From the NCBI GenBank assembly GCA_964036295.1, contig OZ038463.1, positions 28,135,069 through 28,199,068 on the forward strand: DNA of 64,000 bases, written 5' to 3'. This document shows positions 3,001 through 62,000 of the stretch, piece by piece (position 1 is the stretch's first letter; every line of letters starts with the position of its first letter). The position numbers and the translations under genes are program-made. The stretch is from Plumapathes pennacea. Lineage: Eukaryota > Cnidaria > Anthozoa > Antipatharia > Myriopathidae. A model generated the notes under the pieces. It saw only the letters and a program-made list of their open reading frames with translations. It was not told the origin of the DNA and searched no databases.

Positions 3001-3537
3001 CAATGATTGAACTGTTTGAAGCAGACACATGTGTAGCCAAGCCGAGATGACTTATAAACAGAAGAATGGAAGAACGGTAAACAACGAACTACAGTACACT
3101 AACTCAAAGCCAAACTCAAAATCGTTTATTCACTCAAAAATGCGCCACTATCACTGAGTGATTCATGACCAAAACACACAATAACTTATACATGACTTGA
3201 CCTGGTGACACATGTATAATTAAGATGTTATTCAACAGATTCACAGTCTGCCAGGAAAGAAAAGGTGGACCCATCCTCTGTACCAGAGTTGATAATTCTT
3301 CTTGACTTGTCAAGGAAGATTGTCCCGTGCTGGAAATCATTGGGACTACGGCTTGACCTGAGCCAGGACGATATAGACAACATAACGTACAACAGTGCAA
3401 TCATTGAACCTAAGCAAAAGGCATATGAGATGTTGAAAGTCTGGTACCAAAGACAGAAAGATTCCTGCACGTATCAGATGCTGGCGTGTGCTTTGAGGTG
3501 TGAAGGTCTGCACCAACTGGCAGAGGATTATTGTTGA
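2..3537 (+). CDS. Roco (LRR-Roc-COR-Death) protein, 3' part only, copy 1
   Basis: This is the C-terminal end of a Roco-family protein whose LRR, Roc GTPase and most COR sequence lie left of the window. Proposed exons are 2-341, 801-874, 2211-2250 and 3239-3537, 753 nt in all, or 250 residues with all phases compatible. The first exon matches the end of the large exon of the complete paralog at 9462, including a CPHC motif and a later TCPDGGF motif. A TAA stop sits at 347-349, but it follows a good donor (AAAG|GTCAGT at 342), so I read it as intronic. The last exon encodes a Death-domain-like helical region (residues such as DLSRKIVPCWKSLG, DDIDNI and KAYEMLKVW) and ends at TGA 3535-3537. Roco proteins are regulated GTPases; Death domains bind other Death domains in apoptotic or immune complexes. 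The role here is inferred. Confidence 0.72.
1028..1185 (+). mobile_element. Non-LTR retrotransposon reverse transcriptase fragment
   Basis: Inside intron 2 of the first Roco gene, an open stretch encodes VFLDISKVFDKVWHESL followed by FLNGKQRV. This matches reverse transcriptase motif A of LINE-type elements (FLDxSKAFDxVWH, with the catalytic Asp) and the downstream FLxxRxQRV block. The intervening finger segment is shortened and no other RT motifs are visible. It is a dead relic rather than an active element. The family (CR1, L2 or Jockey-like) cannot be decided from this piece. Confidence 0.7.
2413..2540. repeat. Foldback hairpin repeat in Roco copy 1 intron
   Basis: Two imperfect arms of about 50 bp face each other. 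The left runs from TTATTACACAAAGG to GAGTATTTTTACGAGTCAG, and the right is its reverse complement, ending in TTTTCGTGTAATAA. The form is that of a short foldback MITE. No target-site duplication is clear. Confidence 0.6.
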
Positions 3538-8735: not shown

Positions 8736-9461
8736 TTTGTTGATGTTTGGATAGTGTGTTTATCTCGTTAGTATTTCATATTCCTTGCGGTATTTCATTT
8801 TGAAAAGTGGTTATCCATTCAGCACCTATTCATGGATCCCCTTTTATGGATCAAGTTCTTGTTAAAGAAGATGTACTTGATGTCTGAGTGTCCATTATGT
8901 AATACGCAAATGATTATTGTCACACCTGACAACAAGGCTGTGCCTAGCTGATATAAGTCTTGTCAACCAAAATAGAAAATCCAGAAAATTAATCAGGTTC
9001 ATGAAAATTTAAATAATATACATTATCAATCTTTTGTCCTTTCTTTTGTGAAGCTTGACCCATTTATTTGATAGAAATTTGCCCGATGTTTGCACTTAGT
9101 CTTTTTCCGAGGGTCCTAGTTTTCAAGTTTTTTGAGTGCCCGCCAAAAACCTTCCCCCCTCCTGTGGTCAATCTATTGTACTTTGTTTTGTATTTTCTTG
9201 GTTTTCAACATCTTAGTACTGCATTGATTGAGGCCTCACTCAACCAGCTTCGTTAAAGCAATTATGAGAAGAAACAATTAAATTGTTTAGAGTATTTTTG
9301 AAGGTCTTAGTTTTTGAGACACCCAGACCAGTTGTTATTGTTCAACTGACCACATTCTGAGAAACACAAACCATGAGCAAGTTGTGTTACTATCAGCCTT
9401 GTGTTTTCTTATTTTGTTTGCATAATTACCAATTCAGTTTACAAGTGAAGTCCAACCCAAC

Positions 9462-12400
9462 ATGTATTCGCTTAAGAAGCTTCAAGATTCTGTGAAGAGG
9501 AACCAGGAGGGGAAACTGGAGCTCAACCTGAGTTCAAAGAACCTAAGCACTGTACCAGAAGCAATATCACAACTAACACAAGTCCAGGTTCTTGATTTAT
9601 CTGATAACACAAGGATCACTCAGTTACCAGCTGAGCTCAACAAACTTGAGAACCTTTCCTGTCTACGCCTGAGTGGATGTGTTTCCCTCAAATCATTTCC
9701 ATCATCCCAGAGTTTTCCATCTCAGCTGAAAGAACTGCATGTGGACAGATGTGGACTGACTGAGATTGGAACTGCAATAACAGAGTTATGTGGCCTGGAA
9801 AAGTTATGTGTGTCTAACAACCCAATCAGAATAATTCCAGAAAATGTGAGAACACTGGTGCAACTCAACGAGCTGGATTGCAGTGGTTGCCAACTCACTG
9901 AAATGAGGGAGATAACAGAACTGACAAGCCTGGAAAAGCTGAATTTGTTAGGCAATCCCATCAAGAGAATTCCAAATACAATAAGTAGACTGGTTGCCCT
10001 GAGGGAACTCAATTTGCAGGATTGTGGACTAACTGAAATGAAGAGTGAGATAACAGAACTGACAGGCCTGGAAAAGCTGGATTTGTCTTGGAATCATATC
10101 CAGAGCATTCCGGATACAATAACAAGGATGGTTGCACTGAGGGAGTTCAATTTACAGGATTGTGGACTGACTGAAATGAAGAGCGAGATGACACAACTGA
10201 CAGGCCTGGAAAAGCTGGATTTGTCATTCAATCCCATCAAGAGCATTCCAAATACAATCACAAGACTGGTGTCACTGACAGTACTCAATTTACAATATTG
10301 TGGACTGACTGAAATGAAGAGTGAGATAACAGAACTGACAGGCCTGGAAAAGCTGGATTTGTCAGTTAATCACATCAAGAGTATTCCAAATACAATAAGA
10401 AGGATGGTTGCACTGAAAGAACTCAATTTGCGATACTGTGGACTGACTGAAATGATGAGTGAGATGACAGAACTGACATGCTTGGAAAAGCTGGATTTGT
10501 CACAGAATCCCATCAAGAGCATTCCAAATACAATAAGAAGACTGGTTGCACTGAGAGAACTCGATTTAAAGGGTTGTGGACTGACTGAAATGAAGAGTGA
10601 GATAACAGAACTGACAGGCTTGGAAAAACTGGATTTGTCAAAGAATCCAATCAAGAGCATTCCAAATGTAGCAGTCAACTTAAAGAGGCTGAGAGATCTT
10701 GACCTGAGTAAGTGCAATTTACAAGGTGTCCCAAAAAGTCTTTTTAACATGAAGTCATTAAAAAGCCTGAATCTAGAAGGTAATCAGTTAAGGGAGTTAC
10801 CAGTTGGTATCCTTGACTTCCAAGGCTGGCTTGATTATGAAAAGCTTACACTCACAGGTAACCCATTGATTCTACCTCCTGGGAGTGTTTGTTCTCAAGG
10901 AAGTGAGGCAATGTTCAATTTCCTTCAAGAGTACAGAGAATTATCTGTGCATATGAAAGTTGTTCTTGTTGGGTCCAGTAGTGCTGGAAAAACAAGTCTT
11001 GTGAGGACACTTGTCAGTGGCAAGCCAAGTCTTGTGGAAGAAGATGACAGAACAGTTGTTTTGGAAAGAAGCAACTGGGAACTATGTAACAAAGAATGTA
11101 ATGTAAACATTCAAGTTGTTGATTTTGGAGGACAGGAATGGTACAGAGTTGTGCATCCTTTCTTCCTTGATGAGGATGCTTTGATACTACTGGCTGTAAA
11201 TCTGGGCACTTACTCAAGAGATAATTTTGACAAAGATGTTGGCAGCTGGCTTCATGTGCTAGAGTCTCGTGTCCCAAAAGCAACAGTTCGCTTTGTATTG
11301 ACCCAAGCTGACCAAGTTGACAAGCTGGATGTTCCTTCAAAGATTGCTGAAATTGAACAGCTTGCATTGCAAGGTGAATGTGGTCATGTACTTCAGCATG
11401 TCAGAGTTGTCTCTTCAAAGACAATGGAAAACATCAAGGAACTCCAAGAAGAAATTGTGCAACTTGCTGTTGAGAAAGGAGGAAAGATTCCCTCATCTTG
11501 GTTGTCCCTGTACAGGGAAATGTGCCTTTCTGGTGATGCAAACAGGAAGAAGTTCCTGGTCATGGAGGATGTTAAGAGAATGTTCAAGATGTTGACTAAG
11601 AGGACCCACAATGTGGTTAAAAAAATGCTCAAGACAACAGAGCAAAGATGTCGGGATGTGTTGTCCTTCCTCCACAGCTTTGGAATCATCACATGGTACG
11701 ACCATCCTGCTGAGCTTTCAAACTATGTGTTCCATCGCCCTGAGTACCTTGCTGAACTGTTGAAAGCCATCTTTGCAGAGCACCATTCTATAGCTTCTCT
11801 GAGCTATAAAAGGGCAGCATTTAACACCAAGTTTAGCTCTGTTTCCTTTGAAAAGGAAAAAGAAAGTTTGCAGCAACGAGGTGTGATGTCACGTGCTCTG
11901 CTGGAAGGCCTCTGGGAACACATGAAACTTGATGAGGAGCTGTTCAATGGAATGATGCAGTTACTTGTCAAGTTTGACCTGTGCTATGTGTTGTCAAGCA
12001 ATGAAGATGGTGATGTGGACAAGCTGATGTTTCCATGGTTCCTAAAGAAGGCTGCAGGACCAGACGTGAATCAGGTACTACAGAGTGTTCCTTTGCTTGG
12101 TTGTTACCGGCTCACTCTTGAGTACTTGTTTGTTGCCATGTGCCCTCCCCCTTTGTACGAGAAGTTGGCAGTACGTATGCACCATCACATCCAAGACACA
12201 GACAGCCGGAGAGACTGGAAGGATGGAGTTTTGGCCAGAATTTTCAGCAGCCGAGTTGTGGTGCAGAGACGGACTTGTAGAGGTGAGACTGTCATCAGCA
12301 TTGCTGTTGAGGGTAAAGACCCTGTGGAACTGTGGGAAGTACTGCTGAGTCTAAAGAAGGATATAATGTCTCTGATGATGGAGTGGCCTGGTGTGAAGTT

Positions 12401-13870
12401 TGAGAGATGGCTTGTGTGTCCTCACTGTGTGCAATCTGCTGTAAAACAGCCGCACAGATTCCCAGGGGCTTACATGGAGAAAAAGATTCCTTGGAGACAG
12501 CTCTGGATGACATGTCCAAATGGAGGTTTTGATGTCCCAGCATGCTTGGTGTACCCTGTCAAAGGTCAGTGATATTGTTATGATATTGATCTTCAGTTTT
12601 TTTTTTAAATATTGATTTCTTTTTCTTTACAGTCTGAGATTGTGATGAACTAGCTCCATTATATTTTTCTCTTTTCAGTTTTTCACCAGAAATATTATAT
12701 CACATTGTGGATAATTGGGCTTTTAATATCTTGCTCAAAGAAACTCTGATCGGACTATTAATTCTCTCCACAATACTGGTTGGGAGAATTAATTTGTATT
12801 CTAAGCTTGGGATTGATAGAGTTTAATGATATTGACTTAGATGATGAAGAGAGGATTGAGAGAAATGTTTTTCATAAATATAATATTATAACTGTAATGC
12901 TTTCCAAATGGACTGTACAGAAGCAAAGCAGATGTCAATATTGTTTTGTAAATAATGAGTTAATTTACTTTTTAGTCATGTTTATTATTTGTGTAAATTT
13001 TTACAGGATCCAAAAAAGATATCCAACATCACTTGGGCTTGCTACCACAGTTTACATGTCATCTGAAACAATGTAAACCTTGTGAACAGGTCAGTTTAAT
13101 TGTTCAAATGATTGTTATGAATGAATCTTCTTGGTTAACGGTTGACATGAGGCAAAAAAGTTTCATTTGACATATCTTGATTTTTTATTTTTTGCAAAAG
13201 TTATTCACCTTGCCACCTCCACCCCCAGAGTTCCACTCTTAATCGAGCCCCAGACCCCTGGTTTGAAGATGTACATGTATCCACAATCAGTTTGTGTGTT
13301 ATTGCTGTGTTAAAACATATTCTATATACTGTTTTTTATTTACAGAAGTCCGATGGCCTTGTTGACCAAAGTGCAAATGGTATAGTTATTTTAAAGTTTT
13401 TGGCAGTGAAAAGCACCATCTGCCACTCCCCCCCCCCCCCCCCCCCCCCCCTTCACACCCTGTGTCTGTCATGTTTGATAAAAGTGTTGCTATGAGTACG
13501 ACATTTTAGTCTCATTTTCACAGTTGGAACTCAAATCTCAATGGTGGGATCTATTTCAACAGATTTACTGCCTGACGAGGAAGTGTGCAGGAATCCGTCC
13601 ATTGTGCCAACTCTGTCTGTTCTCAAAGAACTGTCAAAAGAGATCATTCCACAATGGCAGTTCCTGGGACTGCAACTTGATATGAACCAGGCCACAATAG
13701 AGAACATCGCCTACAACAATGTTATGTTCACTTGTCCTGAACAAAAAGCATTTCAGATGCTAAAGTCTTGGTGGGACATGGGAAGTTCCTCCACATATGA
13801 CAAGCTGGCGGATGCTCTGAGACACGAGGGTCTGGGCCGACTGGCGGACAAATATTGTTGTGGCTCATGA
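9462..13870 (+). CDS. Roco protein: LRR, Roc GTPase, COR, Death domain (copy 2, complete)
   Basis: Proposed exons are 9462-12564, 13007-13089, 13346-13379 and 13524-13870 (3567 nt, 1188 aa, phases all compatible). Residues about 15-490 are leucine-rich repeats with an internal 46-residue period. The Roc GTPase follows: P-loop GSSSAGKTSL near residue 504, G3 DFGGQE near 554, G4-like LTQAD near 613. A COR-type region runs to about 900, then a conserved tail with CPHC near 986. The last exon encodes a Death-domain-like module (LKELSKEIIPQWQFLG, KAFQMLKSWW, YDKLADALRHEGLG). A TGA directly after 12564 is taken as intronic because AAAG|GTCAGT is a strong donor and the downstream exons match those of copy 1. 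ATG 9462 is the first Met. The frame is open upstream to an acceptor-like CAG at 9435-9437, so an earlier exon is possible. Role inferred: GTP-switched scaffold recruiting Death-domain partners in the cytosol. Confidence 0.85.
9927..10680 (+). repeat. 138 bp tandem repeat encoding paired LRRs
   Basis: Within the LRR exon, the GGCCTGGAAAAGCTGGAT sequence recurs at an exact 138 bp step (about 9927, 10065, 10203, 10341, 10479, 10617). Each unit encodes two 23-residue LRRs, with cores such as GLEKLDLS and LRELNLQDCGLTEM. Nucleotide identity between units is high, pointing to recent internal duplication or conversion. Confidence 0.85.
13429..13451. repeat. Poly-C tract in Roco copy 2 intron
   Basis: A run of about 22 C lies in the last intron, 70 bases before the Death-domain exon. 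No function is apparent. It is a likely site of length variation or assembly error. Confidence 0.7.
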
Positions 13871-17042: not shown

Positions 17043-17764
17043 CATATTTGCAATAAAGACTGCTGGTGCACAAATAAAATCTTATTGTGTTAAGTATTAA
17101 TACTGCATCTTTTTCACATCTACAACAGGTGACCCAGCTCTGCTGCACTCGTGATTTGCGAGAAGAAACTGGGCATGACAGGGCTAGAACCACTTGGCCT
17201 GACTTTCTATTGGATGCTTTGATTTTGTTCCAGCCAATCGATGTTTTGAGTTTGATACAAATTGATGATTAGCTCTAAAATCGGCTGCATAAAAACCGTT
17301 GACTCCTTTCTGTCATTTTCCTTTTCAATAGAAGAGCAGTATTTTTTTTTTTGTACTATTTTCTCTTTCATTATTCTTGAAAGCAAATATTTTGTGATCA
17401 GCTTCCTTTTCTATTTCATATTTTCTCTCACTGGCAAATCATCAAAGTTTCTCAAAGTTACTCCACATTTATTCGTAATCTAATGCTATATACATTAAAA
17501 TATATCTTCTCTAGTAAGTTAGCTTCAAGAAAGGCTGTTTTGTGAGCCCCGAGGTGGGAAGAATTGAAGTAGAGGCCAAGGTTAGTGGATTCAATTTTTG
17601 GTTTCAATAGTTGAGGTCTGAAAAGGGGAAATATACCTTTCGTGATTCACGTTGCTTATTTTGGTATGGTTTTGAATCCTCCGTTATCGTTATTGTTATC
17701 GTTATGTCATTCTTTTCCCGAATAAGTTAATTTCTTTTTTTTTATTATAATTGAAACAACTACT
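17043..17764. other. Gene-free stretch upstream of the first-exon array
   Basis: No convincing gene, RNA or long repeat is visible here. The sequence is AT-rich with short poly-T tracts. An open frame at 17087-17272 has no recognisable features. Confidence 0.5.
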
Positions 17765-17860
17765 GTATAATCACATCCTCATGATAATTGCAGTATCGAC
17801 GTCATGATTGAAATTGCTTGATAACTACGCGACAACAAACCAGTCAATTACTTTAGTGTG

Positions 17861-17880
17861 CGATCAAGTTTGATCAAGTG
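17861..17880 (+). promoter_or_regulatory. Conserved upstream motif GATCAAGTTTGATCAAG (copy 1)
   Basis: The motif lies about 100-125 bp before the first-exon ATG. It recurs at about 18989, 20099, 21060 (one change) and 21961 in the other four units. It is a direct repeat of GATCAAG with a TTT spacer and contains TGATCA. Its retention even in the diverged fifth unit suggests a promoter element or 5' UTR feature. No TATA box is evident. Confidence 0.4.
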
Positions 17881-17982
17881 CTACCTTACGCGGTTACCGT
17901 GCAAGAGATACGTGAATTGCGACTGAAATCCACAGCAGGTTTTAGACAACAAAAGTCCTGTGATTTGATCAACAAGGAAAGA

Positions 17983-20900
17983 ATGGCGAGTCCAAGAATT
18001 CCGTTTATTTCGAGTTCTCCATCGCGACAGCATGAGGACGACTTGAGGAGGTAAATAAATATACGGTATACGATACTAAATAAGTTAATACTACACTCAT
18101 CTATGGGAATGGGAATGGGAATGGAATTAGCCAGAAACGGATACCAGGGGGATGGGGTCAGTCCCACACGTATATAAGCAATATAACTATGTGCCACTCC
18201 ACAGGACAATATATCGTTTTCAAACAGTTTAGTCTGAATTTGACCTGTTTGTTTCTTTTAGAGTAGAGTAGTAGATTACCTCTGTTTTTGTATTTAATTT
18301 TAAAGAGAATGAATGTTTGTGAATTATGCTTAGGAGCTCATACGGTCTAAATAGGGTGGAAAAAAGTCTCATTCACAGTTCTGAGCAGAGAAGAGTTCTA
18401 GAATACAGGTCTGAAATAGGGTTAAAAAATTGTATGGATATTTCACTCTGAAAGAAAGTAAGGGGGTTACTCGCACCAAAAAAATAGACGAAATGCCCCA
18501 CCCCCGGGAGGAGGGAATTATACCAGTCAATGATTTGGGGATACATGGATGGATGGATAGACTGCCAGATAAAACAAGAAGAATAGTGGATGGATGTTGT
18601 AGCTTCTATATGCAGGAAAACTAAGTACATGGAAGGCAAAACACACACCATATCCAGAAACTAACTGCAAGAAACAAAGGTCCATAGAGAAACAAATGCA
18701 AAAGCAAAAAAGGACAGAAAAACCAATGGAGTGCCTTGCTAAACTAATAATCGAAACAGACGCAATTTAAAGAGGAACAAGATATTGACAGCAGTTTAAG
18801 TGACGGCATGGAAACCGACGGATAAACCTTTAAAATCATACAAAACCACCGTGCGGCGTGATTGAAAAACCTCAGAAAATTATTGCAGCAACCATAATTG
18901 TATACTTATAATAATTGCTGTATCAGCGTCATGATTGAAATTGCTTAATAGCTACGCGACACCAAACCACTCAATTATTTTAGTGTGCGATCAAGTTTGA
19001 TCAAGTGCTATCTTGCGGTTAACCGTACAAGAGAATCGTGAATTGTGACTGAAATCCACAGCAGAGATTTAGACAATAGAAGTCCAGCCTGTGATTTGAT
19101 CAATAAGGGAAGAATGGCGAGTCCAAGAATTCCGTTTATTTCGAGTTCTCCATCGCGACAGCATGAGGACGACTTGAGGAGAAGGTAACGGATAAAAGTG
19201 CTAGAGAAATAGATTTAGATAATTACCACATTTATCCGTGGGAATGGTAATGGATTAGCCAGGGTTAATCCCACACTCAAATAAGCCATATAGCTATGTG
19301 CCACCCTAAAGGAAAATACGTCGTTTTGAAGCAATTTAGTCTGAATTTGACTGGTCTGTTTAACTTGAGTAGAGTAGTAGGTTACGTTTATTTTTGTATT
19401 TGATCTTAAAGAAAGTGAATGTTTGTGAAATATACTTAGAAGCTCATACGGTCTAAATAGGGTGAAAAGCCTCATTTACAGTTTTAAAAAGAGAGTAGTT
19501 CTGGGAAACAGGTCTGAAGGGTTAAAGTAATCGCATGTTTTACAATCTGAAATAGAGTAAGGGTTTTTCACAATTATGCAGCACACTCCCACCGAAAAAT
19601 AGACGGGGTTCTCCACCCCCAGAGAAGGGAAATATATCAGTCAATGATTTGAAGATACATGGATGGGTGAATAGACTGAAAGATGAAACAAGAATAGTGG
19701 ATGGATATTGTGGCGTTTATATGCACGAAAACTATGTACATGGAAGGCAAAAGTCAGAAAATCGAGAAACTAACTGAAGAAACAAAATTCCATAGAGAAA
19801 GAAATGCAAAAGCAAAAAGGACAGAAAAACCAATGGAGTGCTTTCCTTAACTAATAATCGAAACAGACGCAAGTTTAAGTTGAACAAGATACTGACAGCA
19901 GTTTAAGTGATGGCATGGAAACCGACGGATCAACCTTTTAAAAACATATAAAAACACCGTGCGGCGTGATTGAAAAACCTCAGAAAATTATTGCAACAAC
20001 CATAATTGTATACTTATAATAATTGCTGTATCAACGTCATGATTGAAATTGCTTTTTATAGCTACGCGACAACAAACCATTCAATTATTTTAGTGTGCGA
20101 TCAAGTTTGATCAAGTGCTATCTTGCGGTTAACCGTACAAGAGAATCGTGAATTGTGACTGAAATCCACAACAGAGATTTAGACAATAGTATTCCAGCCT
20201 GTGATTTGATCAATGAGGGAAGAATGGCGAGTCCAAGAATTCCGTTTATTTCGAGTTCTCCATCGCAACAGGATGAGGACGACTTGAGGATAAAAGTGCT
20301 AGAGAAATAGATAGATAGTTACCACATTCATCCGTGGGAATGTGAATGGAATTAGCCAGGGTTAGTCCCACACGCGTAATAAGCCATATAGCTATGTGCC
20401 ACCCTAAAGAAAAATACATCGTTTTGAAGCCATTTAGTCTGAATTTGACTGGTCGGTTTGCTTTGAGTAGAGTAGTAGATTACGTTTATTTTTGTATTTG
20501 ATCCGAGAGTGAATGCTTTTGAAATACACTTAGAAGCTCATACGGTCTAAGGATGAGAAGTCTCATTCACAGTTCTAAAAAGAGAGAAGTTCTAGGATAC
20601 AGGTCTGAAAATAGGGTTAAAGAAATCGTATAGATGATTCACCCTGAAATAAAGTAAGGGTTGTTCACAATTGGACAGCGCACTCCCATTAAATAATAGA
20701 CGAGCGCCCCACCCCCGGAGGAGGGAAATATACCAGTCAATGATTTGGGGATACATGGATAGATGGATTAGACTGACAGTAGATGAAACAAGGAGAATAG
20801 TGGATGGATGTTGTATTGTTTATATGCAGGACAACTATATAAGTACATGAAAGGTAAAAGTCACATAGAAAATCGAGAAACTAACTTAAGAAAAGAAGTT

Positions 20901-23900
20901 CCATAGAGAAACAAATGCAAAAGCAAAAAGGACAGAAAAACCAGTGGAGTGCCTTGCTAAACTAATGATCGAAACAGACGCAATTTAAAGAGGAACAAGA
21001 TATTGACAGCAGTTTAAGTGATGGCATGGAAACCAAACCATTTAATTATTTTAGTGTGCGATGAAGTTTGATCAAGTGCTATCTCGCGGTTAACTGTGCA
21101 AGAAGTTCGTGGATTGTGACTGAAATCCACGGCAGAGATTTAGACAATAGAAGTCCTGTGATTTGATCAATAAGGGAAGAATGGCGAGTCCAAGAATTCC
21201 GTATATTTCGAGTTCTCCATCGCAACAGAATGAGGGCGATTTGAGGTGAGCTTTGACATCAAATCGAAGTTCGAAACTACGAAGTGAATTATCTTAAGAT
21301 GTTTGATCGTGTAAACATACTGCAGTAGTTGATAAAATAGACACGAGTGGACCAAGAAAGGAGGTAATACCATATTCATCAATAGAAATGGTAATGAATT
21401 AACCAGGATCGGAGAGGGATGGGGGTACTCCCACACATATGTATGCCATATAGCCGTCTGAAGTTGATTTTTTGGTTTGCTTTCGGGTAGAGTAGTATTT
21501 TTTTTGTTTGGTATTTGGTCTTTAATGTTAATATTTAGTATACAACAGAGTGCAAATTTTATAGATAAGTCTGAGTCAGAATCTAAAATAGAGTAAACAT
21601 TTTAGTGTAGAGCTCTAAAAGGGGGAATATACCTTTTTGTAATTTGACTGATTACTTTGGTTTGATTTTCCGCGGTCGTTATTGTTATTTCGTTTGTTCT
21701 TGAATAAGTCAACTTTAACAGTGTCTGTTTTATGAGCTCAAAAATAGAGCAACGGTTTATGTAGTGTTCAGTATGAAAACCGACGGATATATTTGCAAAA
21801 TGATAATACAAGAAAATACGTACAGGGCTGTGGATAATCACTGATACCATATTTGTAATAACTTTAATTATATCCTGATGATAATTTCAAGTACCAACGT
21901 CATGATTGAAATTGCTTAACTGATTACGCAACAACAAACCACTTAATTATTTTGGTGTGCGATCAAGTTTGATCAAGTGCCGTCGTCAGGTTAACCGTGC
22001 AAAAAATTAAAGATTTGTGATTGAAATGTACAGAAGAAATTTTAAAATCAAGAAGAGAAGCATGGCGAGTGCCAGAATTCCGTCGATTTTAAATACTCCA
22101 TTCGATATAAATGAGCTACTCGAGGAGTTGCAACAGGATCCATCGGCCGTAAACTTTGAACAGACTATAATTCTTTGAGCTTGATGAGGTCTGCCCAGTG
22201 ATGCAAAAGAATTAAGTTTAATCAGTTGATTATCATTTTCAATAAAAAATTAACGAAGATTTCTGTTGCCGTTCCTCAATCGGACCTGAGCGTGATTTTT
22301 GCTATACGATTTATACTTTTGATGTGTATTGAAACCGATAAAACTTATATCATAACAGTTATACAAGTAACGGTTCTTTTGTCGTTCAGTACATAAATTA
22401 TATAGGTATAAGCCGCCCCAATGGGTATCCTTTTCAAGCACTTTAGTCTGAAATAGAGTCGAGTAAGTACCTTTTGTATATTTTGGTACTTAGTTAAAAA
22501 AAACATATTTGAGATTTTGAGATACAGGTCTGAAATAGGGTGGAAAAGTCGTATATTTTGGTCTGAAACAGGGTAGACGGTTTTCAGAACCAAACGGCAC
22601 ACTCCTACCCAAAATTAGGCGGATGCCTAGAAGGATAGATAGCTAAACAGACGGAACAAAAGGAATAGTGGTTTCATATTGTGGTGTTTATAACCGGATA
22701 TTACTAAGTGCGTGGAAGGCAAAAGAAACAAACTGAAAAGAAACAAACTCGAGTCAGAAGGGAATTCAAAAACGAAATCGACAGAAAAACTAGAATTGAT
22801 TGATACATAATTAAGATGTGATGATAGAGTGTTAAATAGTAGAATTAAAGTATGATATCAATATAGCTAACTGATTCTGTTATCGCGTTGTAGAAAAGCT
22901 CTTGATGATCCGTTCAATCTGGAAGACGAGGTGAGTCTACACATTTCAGTTTGCGCCTCTCAAACACGAGAACGCACTAAACAAGGCACCCTTGCCAATC
23001 ACCGTTACAAGCTCCATGCTGACTTGAGTGGCTGCTTTCAAATGGTAAAAGCTAATGCCTTTAAAAGAGAAACGAGCGACGCTAACTAGTGACACAACTA
23101 AAATTTCTTTTTATAGTTCTTGTTCTGTTTTTGTATATTTTCATGTTCTCTTTTTTTCGCTGTTGATGTTCATATATTTGAAATTGCTCGACACACACAA
23201 ACACATGCACGAGTGTGTGTTAACGAGTTTTGTTAATTTCTATTTTTAGTTTTTATTTATTGTGCTTGACAATTATTAATTATGTAACGTCGACTATCCG
23301 AGTAAAGATCTGACTGGAGTTTGTAGTTGCATGAGAAATACTCACACAGTACGCACGGTTGTATGATCTGGTACAAACTGCTTTTATTGAACTTGATTAG
23401 CTTCTTATATATATTTCGAAATAGCCATTTCGCAACTACTCGTTTCAGCGCGTTATAGCGACCGTATTTGGCCTAAGCTATAACGTTATCCATTAACTCC
23501 GCTACACTTACAATACATTACTCATATATATTATACTCATACAGTAAACATTGCTCATAGCCCATAATAGCTAAAAAGTTAATGTGGTTAGGCAACATAA
23601 TAAAAAAAATATGTCATTTCATTACATAGCCCATCATCGCGGAAAACCTCGGTGCGGGTCAACCGGTTGATCTTCTGGCCGAAATCCGAAAGCTTCAAGA
23701 ACTTAACGCTCAATTAAGCATTGAGAATGAGGAACTGAAAAACCAGAACACTGATTTATGGGAGGAAGTGGAACAGCAAAATGAGTTCCAGAACACTGAA
23801 ATGGTAGATTTGCAACAACAGCTGGTTGCTTCTGAAAAGTGAGTGGAAAACGTTCGAATGATGTTGATTGAGAGTTTATCTTTCCACCATGACCATGAAC

Positions 23901-26900
23901 CATGAGTGGCTTTGTCATGTGACTATAAAATATTCTGCAATCTGATTGGCTGAGAGCAATAATGTTAATCTGCACTGAGTGGAAATTACATTTTTAATTG
24001 ATCTAAATGCAATATATGTTACCATAGCAACCAATAATTTGTATAAGTTTTCTGTACTTTCTGTAGCTCCCCCACGGCTTTATCCGACTAGAGTTAGATT
24101 CAGTGTCCGAAACCAATTTTCAACCGTGACAAAATGAGATAATTTTAAGTGACTAAGTCCCAACGAACTTTTTTTATAGTCACATGATAAACTAATAACC
24201 AAAGACTTGCTCGTGCATTAATGATTTGCGGCATACAGTCGCGATGTTTGAAAATTGTTCCAGTTGCACGAGTCGTTTTTGGTACAACTTTCAAAACATC
24301 ACCCATTGTGTAAGTCATTAATCGCACCCGCACTTGTATGATTGCCTATACATATTTAATTTATATGTATTCATTATATGAGCGCAAGTGGATTAGGTGG
24401 GAGCATAGCTTGAAGGAACCACAGAGAGCCATGAAAATATGACTGAAGAAACAAGGATATAAACAGATAATCAAGAATGTCTGAAACGCAATTTTTAATT
24501 GGAATTGTGTTTGTGTTGCAGTCGAGCTGATCAGCTTGAAAAGAAAATTCAAAACGAGGTACGTCTGCCTCGGTTTACATTTTTCTTCCTATTCACTACT
24601 CTTCTATTCCCTTTTCATTCTATTTTGACTTATGCGTTTCCGGCGTGTCAAACTGATTCTTTATAAAATGTTAGTCTGTTTCTTTCCCGGCTGGCTTTTA
24701 TTGACGTTCTTGATATTATTTTCTTTTTTCTTTTGGTTGTTGTTGTCTCTTGTTATGATATTTTCGTTTCCTGTTGATGTTGCATAAATTTCGAGTAGAT
24801 TTTGTATTTGTCCTATTTGTTCTGCTACAAATTTAGGACAGAGTTTCCTTGCCCACTAAAAGCTACAGTTCTCTGTCGAACTCCATTGCCTAAATAACAC
24901 CATACCTATGGAGTGTTACAACAGCAGTAGACACATGTACACATTGTGTACCTTTTATTATTTTAGTTGAACAGACCAATGAACACTGTTGTATATAGAC
25001 TGCGTAATCTTCCGGTCATTTTTAGGCCGTAGGATTAACCAAGGCCTAACAAATTTCTTCCTTTTCTTCTCCTCGTATTTATCTTGTGTCATTCCACATT
25101 ATGCTGTTCTTCTTGGCCCTATTTCTTTTCTGTTTCTCGTTTTGGTCACTGACCTTCTGCACATCCCCCCTTGTTTCGCGTCCGTGTCCTTGTTTTTGTC
25201 CTTGTTGTTGTATCTTTGCTGTTGTTTTTGTTCTGCTTCTTATACCTGTTATTGTCCTTGTTGTTGTTGTTGTTTTTGTTAATGTTACCTTAGTTGCTAA
25301 TGCTCTTTTTGTTGTTGTCCTTGTTGTTGTTTTCTTGGTTGTTATCCCTGTTATTCTTGTGTTTTTGTTCTCCTTATTGTTATTGTCTCTGCTGTTTTGT
25401 CCTTGTTGCTAATCTTTTTGTTGTTGTCCTGGTTTTTATCCCTGTATTGTCCATGTTGTTTTTATCCATGTTGGTTGTCCTTGTCCTTCTGTTATCTTTG
25501 TTATTTTGTTCATGTTCTCATCTTTGTTCTTGCGGTGTCTAGCTCTATGTTGCGGGCTCTCTTTTTTTTTCCTTTGTTCTTAGCCAACATTGTCCTTATC
25601 ATTCAATTTCCCTGCTAGATGGCCCAAAGTGAGGAAGCTGCGTCCATTCAAAGAGAAAACGAGGCACAAATCAGGGGCCACCTGGAGCACGTCGTAAACC
25701 AGAACCACGCCTTGTGGGGGTAAGTAAGTACTAAAGTAAAAGAAAGCAATTTGTAGTATTCCTCAGAGGAAATGGAATAGCAGTCTGTTCCGAAAGGTGA
25801 GGTAAAAAACTATAATGTCGATTGCCACTGATTTGTGTAACGACCACCCCCCCCCCCTCTCTCTCTCTCTCTCTTTCTCTCCATATGAACGGTTAAGTTT
25901 TTTGATGGTGAAATTCTAAAAATTTGTTCAAATGCCCCCACAAATTCCCAACTTGGACGAAACATTTTTTTAACAAATACACACATGAGAAATTGAATTT
26001 TTAAGTGATACAAGTAAAGTGGATGTTGTCTAGGCCTCCCCTCCCCCTCAACGCTATGCCCGTCGAGCTTCAAGTCTAAAATGGTGAATTCCTCAACCAA
26101 TCCCAAGAAAGGGGCAGCCTTGAACATTTCGATTTGATTGAATTTTCTGAAATTATTTTCGCGCCAATCACAGTTTTTTCCAAACTTTCCTCGACATCAA
26201 ACGTTGCAAGTTGCTGAGATCGCGTTGCACAGTGTAACACCCTACCTCCGCAACTACAACGATACTTTTTCAACCGTTGCGAAACAAGTTGCTGAGAAAA
26301 TTGCACAGTGTAACAGCGCCTTAAGGCCCGGTTCAGACGCCGTACTTCAGATGAGCCGAGTCGAATTCGACTAAAGAAGTACGGCGTCTGAATCAATTCG
26401 GAACAGCTGAACAAATTCCGATCGACTCAGCCGGGAATAACGGTTGTGGATCGGCTCTGATTCAGAAGCCGAACTTCACTTGAAACGAATCAAATGCATA
26501 AATTTTATGTTTCATCGCCGACCCAAATCTGCAACTTTGAACGTATATAATTAATTTCTGTTGAGTAAATTTCGGCATTCGAATCAATTTAGCCGGGAGT
26601 AATTAATTGGGGTCGGCTTCAATTTGTGTTCGATTCAGCTTATGTGAAGTACGGCTTCTGAACTGGGCCTTATGTATGTATGCAAATGAAAATATTGACT
26701 GTACCGGTAACGTATTTCTTTGTTCACTTTGTTTGTTTTAGACAAGTTAAGGATCTTGAACGACGACTAGCTGAACAGGTGGGTATAGTGACTCCCCTGC
26801 CTTCTTAAAGCCATTTGTAAAACAACAAATAGATTTTATGTCAAGTAATTCACTGTGTGGATTCCCGCCTGGCTGTTGGTATTTAGGACCCGAACCCTTG

Positions 26901-29900
26901 CTGGGCTTTCTCCCACAAAATCACAATCAGACAAACCAACGCGTCGACGAATAACTAAATGGACTGTAGACCCTTCTCACGCAATGAAACTGTCAGGCAT
27001 GTTAAGGTTTTGGAGTTATGTTCTGACCTCCAAGATGGTAGTCTGTTTCAGATTTGGTCCTTGCTGATTTTCACTTGTTTCTCTGTAACTAAACTCTCTC
27101 TAAGGCGGACACAAAATCTAGTCCCGAGAGTTCACTGTAGTTACAAAGAAATTGAAGTAGGGACAGGGAAAATTTAAACCAAAGTGCCAGATTTCAGCCC
27201 TCTTTAAGAAAACTAGCGGGACCCCCGTAAAATACGGGGATTGGATTTCTTTTTTCTTATGTTTTTGGCTTTCTTTTTTCTTTTTTGAATTCCATTTTGA
27301 GCATCTCGAACGCAGTTTACAGTGTCCAAGTACAAACTTCTGTAGTGTATTTACCACTCAACCGTACTCGACTCGTCGAACCACCGATTGATCAACATCA
27401 AAATCTATCTGTAGTACATGTACCACTTAACCCATAGCACTCGGTGAATCGCCGATCGATCGACATCAAAATCTCCCCGTTTTAGTATAATTATGACTAA
27501 CGAGTACGCGAGCATTTCTTGCGTCAGAAATTCAAACCACACATTATCTAATTACCGGTTTAATTTGTTGCATCACAAATCGAAACACACACACACATGA
27601 GCTACGGTCAGCGGTTGCTTAGCGTATTATTATATAGGATGATTATGTGAAATATTGTGTGAAAACCATTTGATTTACAATGTGACTGGGTGTCACATGG
27701 TTTCAAATGCTATTATCCAGTGGTCGTTTTTAAAACTGTTTTAACTTTGAAGTTGTTGCTTAAATTATCATTGTACGCTTGTGTAAATATAGGCTGACTA
27801 CTTTTTTGACCAAATGTTGGCCATTCACAGGAAAAGAACCATCTTATCGAGAAAAATGCTTGGGAAGCTGCACAAGGGTGAGTGAAATCTATTTAAAATC
27901 GAATTGTTCACGCACAATGCAAATAAGTAAAATCCATTGTTTGAGCTAACTTGCATTGCTTTCGGCTCATGAAAAGTTTGAAATGGGTCTAAGGCCCGTT
28001 TGAACCCCCCCCCCCCCCCGGGGGGGACCCTCACATACAAATGACGCGGATGCTCGTCGGGAATTTTCGTTTTGACCCTTAAGAGGTACAAAAACGGGCG
28101 TGGCTCGAGCTTACTTTGACCCCTAAAAGGTACCAGTAAAAGCATACCAGGAACTTAAAGCTTCGATGCCTTTTATTGCTATAAAGAGAATATCATCAAG
28201 CACTTTATCCCTTGCTGCTTTCAAACAAAAAGAGTTCATTCGACTGACACCCGACCCCTAAACGGGTACCACGTCACATAAAATTGTCAGAGTTTGGTGT
28301 TCAGCACCCTAAGCTGTACCAAAACCGTAATTTTGACCCCTAAGAGGTACGACGAGCATCCCCGTCCTTTCATATATGGGAGTTCCTCCCCTCCCCCGGG
28401 TTTGAAACGTCTCTCTTCAATTGCGCCCAACCTAATGCAAATTAGCACAAACAGTGCTTTTAGGCTCGATGCATGAAGAGCGACGTTTATTTGAAATGGG
28501 CTCGTGCGAACGCAACAGTCGAAAAGGGCAACTCGCGTGGACCTCTCGACAGCAACTTTGACACTCTTATCACATTTACTCGAGACGTCTCTGGCACATC
28601 AATAGGTTTTGATTGGTTTGTCTCAAATTTGCGAGAAATCACAAATTAAAATTGTAGTCCTCTTGACCAATCGAATCACGACACAACAGACCAATCACAA
28701 CCGCGACCATAGCCATCAACTCCATCATCTGACGAAAACTCTTCACTTGACTTCCGCGCTCAGGGAATCGAAACGTCATTCAACAAAGACAGATACTATA
28801 CCTGGATACTGTATTCCCACTCGGACGATCACAACAATCACTATAATGACACAGAACACCAGCTAGAAACTGTACTGAATAAAATTACATAAACCTCTTG
28901 CGCTTTATTGTAAGTTACATGGCATTCCGTGTTTTTATTTTGTTCGACTCAAAATCAGTTTCCAGGCTCGAAACGGTTCTTTGGCGCGCGAAGGCTGGCC
29001 TCTAATTTGTACGCTCAAGCAGTCACGCAACAAATATGTCGACTTGTAAATCGAATTTCATCGTGCTTTTTATGGATAACTCCAATTTGATTCGGTGAAT
29101 TGCCGAGAAACACTTGTGTCCTTTTTCAAAGAAGTCTGTTAACCGAAACCTAAATTAATAGGAAACGGCATTTTCTCCGAAATGTGTTGACGGAATTTCA
29201 TGAAATGTATAAGTTTTGTGGCCCTCAGCATACAAATCAGTTGTTTAAAGTTGAAAAGAAATTGTACGATTATCGTAAAGTTTTAAAACATTTTAATATT
29301 CTATGACCTTTTTTGGTGTCGCATGCGACATACGCCACCAAGTATACAGACTTGACATTAAATATGAAATACCAGATCACTTTTGCCACTTCCATATAAG
29401 GCAAGCCACACAGTAACACCACCGCCCCCAACTCTGTAAAACTTCAGCCAGCTACGACAATGCGTTCAGGAGATATAGATGGAAACATGTTGACCAGGGG
29501 TTTTTGTATAGCTCACCAAAAGCGTGCCACAGTGCTGATGGTATGTTCACTCGCCCCACGGATGATTGAAAGCAATGATTGGTCTAAAAATTACATGCCG
29601 GTCAGGTGACATGGTCTACTGTATACAGTATGTGAAGCATGTTGTCGTACCATTAAAATGTTCTGAAAACTGACCCTATTTATTTCATCCCGATCGAACA
29701 GAAACATATTTCATATTTAATGTCAAGTCTGTACGATACGACTCATGTGGAAGTGTGGTAGCAAAATCGCATGCGCGCAACAGTCGTAAGCTAAAATCGT
29801 AGCGTGTAAATCGGTTTTTGGCCAATGTTGAGTACGACTCCACGACGGACTCTGAGTCGTACTTGTGTTCAGTAAAAGTTGCATAAATCTAAGAATTTTA

Positions 29901-31118
29901 AATTGATTTGATCCCTTTGAATATCTCGAACCCTCAGTAGTTTAAACTATAATATATACTTTTGTTTCCTTCGGGAAATGGCCGATTTTCAAAAAAATAA
30001 TAGTTTGACGGGGTTCAACTGTAGATCTTAATCTGTTTCACAGATTAGCCATGCTAGCCGCGCCGCCCGTGCAGGCCGTCACAACAGCAAGCATTGGAAC
30101 ATCCCCAGGCCTTCCATCCAGGAGATCTCTACCTGTGCCAAACGAATCAACTCTGGCCAATAGAGTCAACAAGGCACTGGAATCAATTGCAACTGAAACG
30201 ACTAACAAGCCCAAACAACGCCGTCGTCGTAGTGGGCAGATTCCTGTGTTCCAGGGTCGTAGAACCTCCAAAAAGCCTCCTCCAAGTGGTGGCATGGCAC
30301 TGCAAAAAGTTCCATCTTCTGCAAGTGAAGCGACGGATACAGGAATGAATGTGTCTGACGCAGCGATCGCAGTGGCTGCTTCGCCAGATCGTACAGGAGC
30401 GGGCGCAGAAGCAATTAATTCTGAAACAGTTGTTGTTGCCGGAAGGCAACGCAGCCGTCTACCGCGCTCGTTATATCAGCCAACCAAAGCCTCACAAGCG
30501 AAGTGGGCCGATCGCAAACAATCAGCCCAAAAGGCCGCCAAGCCGCCAGTTCCCCCGCGAAAAACAAAAAAAGCTGCCGGGAAAAGGACTTCAAACCAAT
30601 TTCAGCCTGCGGCGTCTGTTCAGCCTTTAAGCAGTATTCAAGAGCCTGGTCCGATAGTTCGCACGCCAGATCCACTGAAGTGGGCCGTTGTACCGGACAT
30701 CAGTGGTCATCAATCTGGAAACCAACTGTTTTGGTATGAGCCTGAGGGTGGTGCTGCAGTCTCCCGCCAGCGCCGCAAATGGGAAGAGCCACACTCTTCA
30801 CTCAGTATCACATCTATTTTGTCTGAGCAGTTTGAAGACGATGATGACGTTGCCACGCCCACCAATTCACCAGCAGCGTGGATAGCTCGGTCTGCACCCC
30901 GTCGCTGGCTTCGTTCCGCCGAGGTATCAACTTCCCCATTTATCTACAGCACTCCTCAGCCGCAAAACAATGCCGACCCGTTCGATGATTCCACACCCAC
31001 CAATGCTCCTGCAACAGCGTCGAAATTTAATTTTGATACTGTCGTACCCCGCCGTCAACTTATGTCCTATCCTTACTACTCTGGTCAGCCGGCAGCAAGG
31101 AGAAATACCTTTTACTGA
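17983..31118 (+). CDS. Coiled-coil protein with basic proline-rich tail, unrecognised
   Basis: Proposed exons are 17983-18050, 22894-22930, 23630-23838, 24522-24558, 25619-25719, 26742-26778, 27831-27877 and 30044-31118. They total 1611 nt (536 aa), with every junction in phase and flanked by AG and GT. The N-terminus (MASPRIPFISSSPS) is short and Ser/Pro-rich. Residues about 35-175 are charged and heptad-like (KLQELNAQLSIENEELKNQN, VKDLERRLAEQ), predicting coiled coil. The last exon encodes about 355 residues that are basic and low in hydrophobics. It includes an SH3-ligand-like KPPVPPRKTKK and an acidic EQFEDDDD patch, and ends at TGA 31116. There is no signal peptide or membrane segment. 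I infer an intracellular scaffold or cytoskeletal protein and cannot name a family. The large intron 27878-30043 might hide another exon. A polyadenylation signal AATAAA lies at 31401. Confidence 0.75.
19114..19184 (+). CDS. Alternative first exon, copy 2
   Basis: This is a second version of the first exon (71 nt) encoding MASPRIPFISSSPSRQ and a one-residue-longer end. It finishes AGAAG|GTAACG with two bases over, the same phase as copy 1, so it can splice to 22894. It is preceded by the same upstream block. Confidence 0.65.
20224..20310 (+). pseudogene. First exon, copy 3, splice donor deleted
   Basis: The coding part matches copies 1 and 2 up to GACTTGAGGA. Then about 12 bp containing the donor are missing relative to copy 2, so the frame runs through to a TAG at 20308-20310 after IKVLEK. 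If transcribed it would make a 28-residue peptide or need a cryptic donor. Probably disabled. Confidence 0.65.
21181..21245 (+). CDS. Alternative first exon, copy 4
   Basis: This is a 65 nt version with substitutions (PYISSSPSQQNEGDL) and a strong donor TTGAG|GTGAGC, again leaving two bases over. It is therefore compatible with the common second exon at 22894. The GATCAAG motif upstream has one change. Confidence 0.6.
22062..22179 (+). pseudogene. First exon, copy 5, diverged
   Basis: ATGGCGAGTGCCAGAATTCC is recognisable, but the rest has diverged (MASARIPSILNTPFD). The homologous donor position reads GAGTTG instead of GAGGTA. The frame then continues to TGA at 22177-22179 (38 residues). A weak in-phase GTTGCA donor remains possible. 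It is the closest copy to the common exons and may be the oldest unit. Confidence 0.5.
25180..25560. repeat. TTG/CTT-rich simple sequence in intron
   Basis: Pyrimidine and TTG-rich low-complexity sequence (CTTGTTGTTG, TTTTTGTT) fills the intron before the exon at 25619. It creates long Leu/Val/Cys reading frames without biological meaning. Confidence 0.75.
26323..26671. repeat. MITE with AAGGCCCGGTTCAGACGCCG termini
   Basis: The left end AAGGCCCGGTTCAGACGCCG then TACTTC and the right end GAAGTACGGCTTCTGAAC then TGGGCCTT are inverted repeats of about 28 bp. The interior is AT-rich with no coding. It lies in the intron before exon 26742-26778. A shorter relic with GTTGCACAGTGTAACA sits just upstream. 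Confidence 0.75.
27212..27290. repeat. Dispersed repeat AACTAGCGGGACCCCCGTAA
   Basis: AACTAGCGGGACCCCCGTAA then AATACGGGGATTGGATTTCT resembles the stretch at about 15128-15185 (AACTAGCAAGATCCCCGTAA). Both are followed by T-rich tracts. Family unknown. Confidence 0.5.
27998..28408. repeat. MITE with internal GACCCCTAAGAGGTAC palindromes
   Basis: The ends are inverted repeats (GTTTGAACCCCC with a C/G run, ending GGATGCTCGTCG; and CGACGAGCATCCCCGTC ending CCCGGGTTTGAAAC). The interior holds several variants of GACCCCTAAGAGGTAC (near 28074, 28120, 28253, 28335), each itself partly palindromic. It sits in the long last intron of the coiled-coil gene. Confidence 0.65.
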
Positions 31119-33496: not shown

Positions 33497-33973
33497 TTAA
33501 CTCAGGCACAGACGTGTCTCAGGCAAGCGAATAAAACAGGCAGTTAAAGCAGGTATTCCGCAGCCTGCAACCCGCAAAAAGTCACAAGTCATGGTTAACG
33601 TGATTTCGTCTCGCTTTTGACGCCAGGAGAGGAAATAAGTGAAAGTGAAGTTCTGCAGCAGTATTGCAAAACGTACTGGTGACGTGGCCTCAGATACGTG
33701 TGACTTTTCGCTGTTTTGGCTCCGTAGTTTTGTCACTGCTGAATACGACAACCTTAAACTACTTATCATTTATCCTTTGACTGCATAGAAAGTTATGTAT
33801 TTTCCACAGCTATTGAAAAAGTATCGGCGAAATTGTTTTTTGTTTAGAAATTAAAACAAAACTTTTGAAAAATATGACCTCAGGCAAAATGTACCGATCC
33901 ATTCGTGAAACCGGAAATGACGTTCATGTTTGGTTGCTGAGTATGGGCCTGGCACTACTGTTACACGTCCACA

Positions 33974-46121
<12,148 letters not shown>

Positions 46122-59000: not shown

Positions 59001-62000
59001 TCAAAATTTAGAATTCAGACATTATTTAATATGATTTGACTTTTCTTTACGGTCGTAGCTGAAGACGGATGTAAGAACTATAAAGTTCTTAGTGGAGCTG
59101 ACAGATCTCCAAGCAATGCCCTCCAGAACAATGTCAGATGTGATCAACGCGACCTCGCTCCCGGCTGGTATCGTTTCCAAGGCGCCGCTGGTGACAAGAT
59201 TTCAGACGAATGCGTTCCCATAAGGCGCTGTGGTACACATGCACCTGGCTGGATTAAATCCGGAGAACACCCTACAGTTAACCAGGGAGTGGTGACCCTC
59301 GAAGTCTGTTATCACTGGAACCATAACTGCTGCCGATGGACCAACAACATCAAAGTGCGCAACTGCGGAGATTTCTTCGTCTACGAGCTTCAAAAACCTC
59401 CAGTCTGTTCTCTGCGTTACTGTGGAAACGCAGGCCAAGGTATAAAGATAAGGAAGTTGTTTATTAGCAAAATTTCACTCCACCTGATCGAAATGCGGCC
59501 TGACCGTGGATTATGATAAGACCAGTGTCCTCTAGCTAGGTATAGCCGCTTTTGCATGACTGTCGAGGAAGTAATCGTACGATTGCTTTGGTTTTGCGTG
59601 TGCTACGCTTTCCGATTGGTCCTAATAACTTTAGCAACATTCTTGGACGGTTAAGAGCAAAAACGAAACCTGGTTGCAATATTCTCACGCAAGAAAAGAA
59701 GTGGCAATGGCGTGTTCTTGCGCTGCTGATTGGTCAGTAAAACCAATCGCAATTACTTGATTTTGGTTTTACTCGTACTTCTAATTGGTCAGATTTTTTT
59801 GTTCGTCTCATTGATTGGATCTGTAATTGCTTTGGTTTTGGTGTTCGAAAGTCATCTAAAAGCGCTCTAACGAGATGTCGGATCAAAAATCAAGTTGTGA
59901 TCATCTTTATTTTTTTCGAAATCAACCTTAGGTCCAGATGAGTGTAGGAACTACAAAGTTCTTGATGGAGCTGACAGATCTCAAAGTAATGCCCTCCAGA
60001 ACAATGTCAAATGTGATCGACGCGACCTCGCTCTCGGTTGGTATCGTTTCCAAGGCGCCGCTGGTGACAGGATCTCCGAAAAATCCGTTCCTGTAAATCA
60101 TTGTGGTACTCATGCCCCTGGCTGGATGACCAGAAGACACCCTACAGTCGCCCAGGGAGTGGTGACCCGCACAGTTTGTTATCACTGGAACAATGACTGC
60201 TGCCGATGGAGAAACGACATCAGAGTGCGCAACTGCGGAGGTTTCTTCGTCTACGAGCTTCAAAAACCTCCAACATGTTGTCTGCGTTACTGTGGAAACG
60301 CAGGCCAAGGTATAATGATAAGAAAGTTGCTTATCAACAAAACCTCACTCCGACAGATCAAAATCTCAATGTCCCGCCAATAATTTTCTAAAATTTTGTC
60401 CAAGATTGTATATCGTTGCCTGACCGTGGATTATGATAAGACCAGTATCTTTTAGATAACAAGATATCGGATTATATAATCAAGTTGTGACCGCCTTTAT
60501 CTTTTTCAAAATCAGCCCCAGGCCCAGATGAGTGTAGGAACTACAAAGTTCTTGATGGAGCTGACAGATCTCAAAGTAATGTTCTCCAGAACAATGTCAA
60601 ATGTGATCAACGCGACCTCGTTCCCGGCTGGTATCATTTCCAAGGTGCCGCTGGTGACAAGATTCCCGACAAATGCGTTCCCATGAGGCGCTGTGGTACA
60701 CATGCACCTGGCTGGATTAAATCCGGAGAACACCCCACAGTCGAACAGGGAGTGGTGACCCGCAAAGTCTGTTATCACTGGAACAATAACTGCTGCCAAT
60801 GGACCAACAACATCAAAGTGCGCAACTGCGGAGATTTCTTCGTCTACGAGCTTCAAAAACCTCCAGTCTGTTCTCTGCGTTACTGTGGCAACGCAGGCCA
60901 AGGTATAAAAATAAGGAAGTTGCTTATCAACAAAACCTCACTCCACCTGATCGAAATTCTCAATGTCCCGCCAATCATGTTTTTAACATTTTGTCCAAGA
61001 TTGTATATGGTTGCCTGACCGTGGATTATGATAAGACCAGTATAATTTAGATAACAAGATATCGGATTATATAATCAAGTTGTGACCGTCTTTTATTTTT
61101 CGAAATCAGCCCCAGGCCCAGATGAGTGTAGGAACTACAAAGTTCTTGATGGAGTTGACAGATCTCAAGGCAATGCCCTCCAGAACAATGTCAAATGCGA
61201 TCAACGTGACCTCGCTCCCGGCTGGTATCGTTTCCAAAGTGCCGCTGGTGACAAGATTCCCGACAAATGCGTTCCCATGAGGCGCTGTGGTACACATGCA
61301 CCTGGCTGGATTAAATCCGGAGAACACCCCACAGTCGAACAGGGAGTGGTGACCCGCAAAGTCTGTTATCACTGGAACAATAACTGCTGCCAATGGACCA
61401 ACAACATCAAAGTGCGCAACTGCGGAGGTTTCTTCGTCTACGAGCTTCAAAAACCTCCAGTCTGTTCTTTGCGTTACTGTGGCAACGCAGGCCAAGGTAT
61501 AAAAATAAGGAAGTTGCTTATAACCAAAACCTCCACCTGATCGAAATTCTCAATGTCCTGCCGATCATGTTTTTAACATTTTGTCCAAGATTGTATATGG
61601 TTGCCTGACCGTGGATTATGATATGACCAGTATAATTTAGATAACAAGATATCGGATTACATAATCAAGTTGTGGCCGTCTTATTTTTTTCGAAATCAGC
61701 CCCAGGCCCAGATGAGTGTAGGAACTACAAAGTTCTTGATGGAGTTGACAGATCTCAAGGCAATGCCCTCCAGAACAATGTCAAATGCGATCAACGTGAC
61801 CTCGCTCCCGGCTGGTATCGTTTCCAAGGTGCCGCTGGTGACAAGATTCCCGACAAATGCGTTCCCATGAGGCGTTGTGGTACACATGCACCTGGCTGGA
61901 TTAAATCCGGAGAACACCCCACAGTCGAACAGGGAGTAGTGACCCGCGAAGTCTGTTATCACTGGAACAATAACTGCTGCCAATGGACCAACAACATCAA

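Follow-up and report, generated by a model that had tools for sequence, protein, structure and literature searches.

A stretch of 64,000 nucleotides from the antipatharian Plumapathes pennacea (GenBank assembly GCA_964036295.1, contig OZ038463.1, positions 28,135,069 to 28,199,068; referred to as the window and numbered from its first letter) contains five tandem copies of a unit made up of an upstream block and a short start exon, followed by the single set of downstream exons of one gene. The favoured reading, whose probability is put slightly above even, is that parallel promoters and start exons in units 1, 2 and 4 feed this one gene, with unit 4 probably the main start. The window lies on contig C2 of a genome of 290 Mb in 24 contigs, and the array and the gene are encoded on the plus strand. 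The kinds of genes and repeats present would also suggest a cnidarian-like source. Promoter activity, splicing and the relative use of the units are predicted here from sequence features.

Regarding the array itself, the five tandem units proposed by the initial annotation were borne out. The ATGGCGAGT start codons number five in the window (17983, 19114, 20224, 21181 and 22062), the members of a 128-base repeat family follow one another at start-to-start distances of 1127, 1110, 961 and 901 bases, and self-alignment reveals one 2.2-kb direct repeat (17767-19923 versus 18894-21034, 84% identity) together with pieces extending to units 4 and 5. A search of the whole genome with the block and exon of unit 2 (297 bases, E up to 0.001) returned five matches, which are the five array units. 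Units 1-3 are full repeats of about 1.1 kb that include spacer as well as exon. Their upstream blocks, regarded as the putative promoter and 5′ leader, were delimited by self-alignment and unit alignment at 17767-17982, 18894-19113 and 20002-20223, respectively, and that of unit 4 by genome search and unit alignment at 21029-21180. Each unit had been described as carrying the same upstream block; this does not hold for unit 4, in which the distal part (the first ~64-68 alignment columns) is deleted, and the repeats of units 1-3 take in the spacer in addition. Unit 5, the most diverged of the five, has its block at 21865-22061, the first part of which is better kept than its exon. The spacers are partly built from a dispersed genomic repeat: spacer 2, whose portion at 19247-19345 matches the dispersed copies, has at least 41 matches in the genome, a lower bound as candidates were scored only in part, of which four lie inside the array and 37 outside, most of the latter covering some 65 bases.

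The constant region downstream of the array is intact and single-copy, and its seven exons (22894-31118) are bounded by AG and GT and remain open to the stop at 31118. They comprise exon 2 (22894-22930), the coiled-coil-like exon 3 (23630-23838), exons 4 (24522-24558), 5 (25619-25719), 6 (26742-26778) and 7 (27831-27877), and a last exon (30044-31118) encoding the C-terminal part. The start exons of unit 1 (17983-18050; 22 codons plus two bases, MASPRIPFISSSPSRQHEDDLR), unit 2 (19114-19184; 23 codons plus two bases) and unit 4 (21181-21245; 21 codons plus two bases) end at the donors GAG/GTAAAT, AAG/GTAACG and GAG/GTGAGC, respectively. As had been noted from the letters, these donors (18050/51, 19184/85 and 21245/46) leave two bases over, which is the phase of the exon at 22894, and the joined products of 536, 537 and 535 amino acids are each continuous without a stop. 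The exon lengths are 68, 71 and 65 bases for units 1, 2 and 4; because the donors of units 1 and 2 are thereby shifted 3 and 6 bases beyond that of unit 4, the phase has been kept through insertions and deletions.

On a generic donor matrix, the donors of units 1, 2 and 4 reach 3.09, 3.16 and 7.11. Unit 4 is probably the main start, since it has the strongest donor of the array and is the competent unit closest to exon 2, whereas units 1 and 2 have weak donors. The accompanying claims on the two other copies, a donor lost by a small deletion in copy 3 and divergence of copy 5, also stand. Unit 3 (20224-20310) lacks the 12 bases that hold the donor in unit 2, and its frame ends with TAG after 28 codons; the best later phase-2 GT among those listed scores 1.84 and lies beyond that stop. 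Unit 5 retains an open reading frame (ORF) of 38 codons and a stop (22062-22178) with no usable donor, its two in-frame phase-2 GTs having scores of -9.37 (20 bases into the frame) and -9.97 (65 bases in); about 90% of the GTs in the window score at least as high as the second. A usable phase-2 donor is therefore present in three of the five copies, and the other two cannot splice in frame to exon 2. A scan for start exons (ATG flanked by a -3 purine and a +4 G, a length of 8 codons or more, a phase-2 donor of at least 3.0, the last cut-off having been set after unit 1's 3.09 was seen, i.e., just below it) gave exactly units 1, 2 and 4 on the plus strand between 12601 and 22893 and none on the minus strand; over the whole window, it gave five candidates on the plus strand and none on the minus strand.

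According to the favoured reading, unequal exchange would have multiplied a stretch of about 1.1 kb that contained the putative promoter, leader and start exon of the single-copy gene. Transcripts begun in unit 1, 2 or 4 would each use the donor of that unit and the acceptor that precedes 22894, yielding nearly the same protein of 535-537 amino acids, and RNA from unit 1 or 2 would read through the later units, which would be skipped in splicing. A coding transcript needs such skipping, because the upstream blocks of units 2-5 contain 22 AGs with at least 10 pyrimidines in the 19 preceding bases, and every join to them from an earlier unit brings in at least one in-frame stop. Units 1 and 2 would serve as weaker alternative starts, contributing to output or redundancy and not to the variety of the protein. 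Over the first 22 residues, units 1 and 2 are identical, unit 3 shows two differences and unit 4 four, so that the word "variable" in the initial annotation is not supported. As the start exons barely differ, protein diversification is unlikely, and any benefit would lie in the amount or place of expression. Units 3 and 5 would have decayed as start exons, and unit 5 may still serve as a regulatory element.

The conservation of the start exons exceeds that of the spacers in all three pairs among units 1-3, the pairs that were tested (p-values uncorrected for the number of tests; the seven pairs involving units 4 or 5 were tabulated without testing, owing to poor spacer alignment). Exon and spacer differences are 0/65 versus 132/711 for units 1-2 (p=6e-6), 2/65 versus 89/715 for units 2-3 (p=0.02), and 2/65 versus 111/709 for units 1-3 (p=0.003). 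Block and exon taken together are likewise better kept than spacer for units 1-2 (27/280 differences, p=0.0005) and units 2-3 (10/285, p=6e-6), the proximal upstream part in two of the three pairs, and the distal upstream part in one (p=0.049). In the alignment of all five units (columns 69-293), 28 columns are invariant in the best stretch of 30, a value reached in 1 of 5000 shuffles; this upstream element is thus nearly invariant in every unit, unit 5 included. The most conserved stretch contains GTGCGATCAAGTTTGATCAAGTG, which four of the five units carry exactly and unit 4 carries with a single change. In a comparison picked after the alignment had been viewed, the private differences of unit 5 amounted to 10/120 in upstream columns 1-125 and 17/63 in the exon (p=0.0016). 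A search of the whole genome with the 23-base core, allowing up to three mismatches, found six places, the five array units and C1:40753252-40753274 (two mismatches); this number is not above a chance expectation estimated by hand, and the idea of a regulon was dropped. The reading of the initial annotation as an alternative first-exon cluster is supported in part: phase, open frame, the lack of any other usable upstream start exon at the cut-off, exon conservation and, in two of three pairs, conservation of the proximal block agree with it; the two units that cannot splice in frame do not fit.

Several observations weigh against parallel use of the units. None of the gene's six internal donors (4.31-7.73) scores as low as those of units 1 and 2, in both of which the G at +5 is missing. 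For the pair of units 1-3, neither block plus exon (p=0.07) nor the proximal part (p=0.26) is significantly better kept than spacer; the distal part is no better kept for units 1-2 or 1-3 (p=1), and the leader immediately before the ATG is better kept in none of the three pairs. The exon changes among units 1-4, counted by eye, amount to a minimum of six, five non-synonymous and one synonymous, against a neutral expectation of 0.72-0.77. As this ratio is that seen under neutrality, the exon conservation is not shown to be protein-level selection; gene conversion could be its source, as could constraint at the nucleotide level. Neither a TATA box nor a TCAGTY initiator was found in any of the five blocks with simple patterns, and a looser initiator pattern matches all five blocks and is uninformative. 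The CpG values are 1.14-1.40 for the whole blocks and 0.93-1.17 for the upstream parts alone (pooled, 1.06 versus 0.73 in the spacers); the latter are not extreme, as 16-31% of equal windows reach them, and CpG was dropped as promoter evidence. The promoter role of the upstream blocks is putative. Furthermore, the ATGs are preceded by acceptor-like AGs, among them a TTTTAG in units 1-4 (at -130 or -126), so that an undetected non-coding exon could lie further up, making second exons of the units.

The most serious competitor, considered possible although clearly less probable than parallel use, is that unit 4 is the sole start in use and that units 1, 2, 3 and 5 are functionless duplicates at various stages of decay. 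It would account for the donor score of 7.11 beside 3.09 and 3.16, for the position of unit 4 as the competent unit nearest to exon 2, for two units that are already dead as exons and for the missing signal of protein-level selection. It is less easily reconciled with units 1 and 2, whose exons show no difference in 65 aligned bases, against 132 differences in 711 spacer sites, an identity that gene conversion could also explain, and which retain the correct phase in spite of their displaced donors. A further possibility, rather unlikely, is a promoter array in which parallel copies would tune output by copy number and not by protein sequence; decayed copies such as unit 5 would be kept as enhancer-like elements with the 30-base core still under selection, and copy number could vary between individuals.

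It is improbable that the units are not first exons at all but second exons behind a non-coding exon further upstream, or that each of them is a small gene. All five units have upstream AGs as pyrimidine-preceded as the gene's own acceptors; ahead of TTTTAG in units 1-4, the preceding 19 bases include 10-12 pyrimidines, versus 10-15 for the latter. An attempt to exclude internal exons by pyrimidine count consequently failed once this comparison was made, and the in-frame stops alone weaken that reading. The upstream AGs are nevertheless weak evidence, because 45% of all AGs in the window pass the same mark. In units 1, 2, 3 and 5, the conserved block extends upstream of these AGs by up to ~90 bases, and splicing from one unit to the following one at an AG of this kind leads to the in-frame stops mentioned above. 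As for small genes, unit 5 keeps its 38-codon frame with AATAAA (22241) 63 bases past the stop, but AATAAA is frequent here (0.78 per kb). Three donors in the phase of exon 2, and the lack of any free-standing copy elsewhere in the genome, also argue against this reading.

A diversifying first-exon cluster like those of the protocadherins or UGT1, with different N-termini selected by the choice of promoter, is highly improbable: tandem homologous start exons in the same phase do precede one constant region, but the three competent exons are nearly alike over their 21-23 codons, and unit 5, the sole really different exon, lacks a usable donor. An assembly artefact with haplotypes placed side by side, to which tandem arrays are in principle prone, is hardly credible, since divergence between the spacers of units 1-3 amounts to 12-19% of aligned sites and is far greater for units 4 and 5, with separate deletions, which clearly exceeds what alleles ordinarily show.

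The copies arose via tandem duplication with later exchange. In units 1-3, sites grouping unit 2 with unit 3 dominate columns 1-700 (67/94), and sites grouping unit 1 with unit 3 lead in the remaining columns (42/90; p=3e-8 for a mosaic). This mosaic kinship implies that, once the first duplication had taken place, unequal exchange or conversion occurred repeatedly. The sequence left of unit 1 (17610-17699) resembles part of the spacer between units 4 and 5 (21607-21688, 73%), suggesting that the oldest duplication may have exceeded one unit. The ORF of unit 5 was also considered as a captured fragment of another gene; the genome search gave a single place, unit 5 itself. Six tandem ORFs occupy 59040-62796 on the plus strand, with repeats ~590 bases apart from the second onward, and the first and last of them, the two that were scanned, match the uromodulin-like D8C domain PF23283. 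With this second exon-size tandem array at 59-63 kb, duplication of exons in tandem is not a rare event within the window.

The gene product would be coiled-coil-like, a description drawn from the protein sequence; a test for 3.5-residue periodicity was marginal, 87 of 2000 shuffles being equally high. Searches of Pfam with the N-terminal 175-178 amino acids and with the whole product gave no family above the cut-off (best E 0.84), and those of the PDB gave no convincing solved relative (best E 0.23). A paralogue search of the genome (E up to 0.001) returned three matches, all of them the gene's own exons, and thus no paralogue. Among the neighbouring features, an ORF of 1048 amino acids with leucine-rich repeats and Roc and COR domains (9426-12572) is flanked by death-domain ORFs (3220-3537 and 13496-13870). 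The next gene downstream, on the plus strand at ~33970-37930, encodes a GDP-mannose 4,6-dehydratase, the first exons of which, joined by eye, match PF16363, and a long array of 68 copies of the 9-base unit GATGGTGAT lies at 41091-41714.

The first exon of human PGM1 is reportedly duplicated, judging by the title of a 1993 report by Putt. PGM1 has alternative promoters and start exons with the later exons shared, the two alternatives, with 82 and 100 residues, giving different N-termini (PMC7101342). The present array would resemble PGM1 in having homologous first exons (first rather than second exons being the predicted state) in tandem before one shared exon set, and differs in that as many as three copies may be competent, with 21-23 codons each and nearly one N-terminus. 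With respect to a promoter for each copy, the conserved upstream element is found in all five units, unit 4 being without the distal part. The vertebrate UGT1 and protocadherin loci are variable-first-exon clusters with constant downstream exons, relic copies, and birth and death of copies (PMC1885805); tandem similar first exons ahead of constant exons, relics and copy turnover would be common to these loci and the present one, UGT1 being the larger example. In contrast to their diversified first exons, those described here are of 21-23 codons and hardly varied, units 1, 2 and 4 showing 0-4 differences over 22 aligned residues. A transcript that skips later units would follow the logic described for UGT1 (PMC1885805) and PGM1 (PMC7101342). 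The layout of duplicated first exons and promoters is already known, and the present gene would be a new case with unusually little protein difference; no description of this gene or of a near-identical start-exon array was found in a literature search that was far from complete.

If unit 4 alone is used, the array is ordinary duplication debris. If several units are used, it would provide a natural case in which the copy number of promoters changes without a change in the copy number of the gene or in its protein. The graded decay from a strong donor through a weak donor and a deleted donor to a lost exon with a kept upstream element would then display, side by side, how alternative start exons are born and die.

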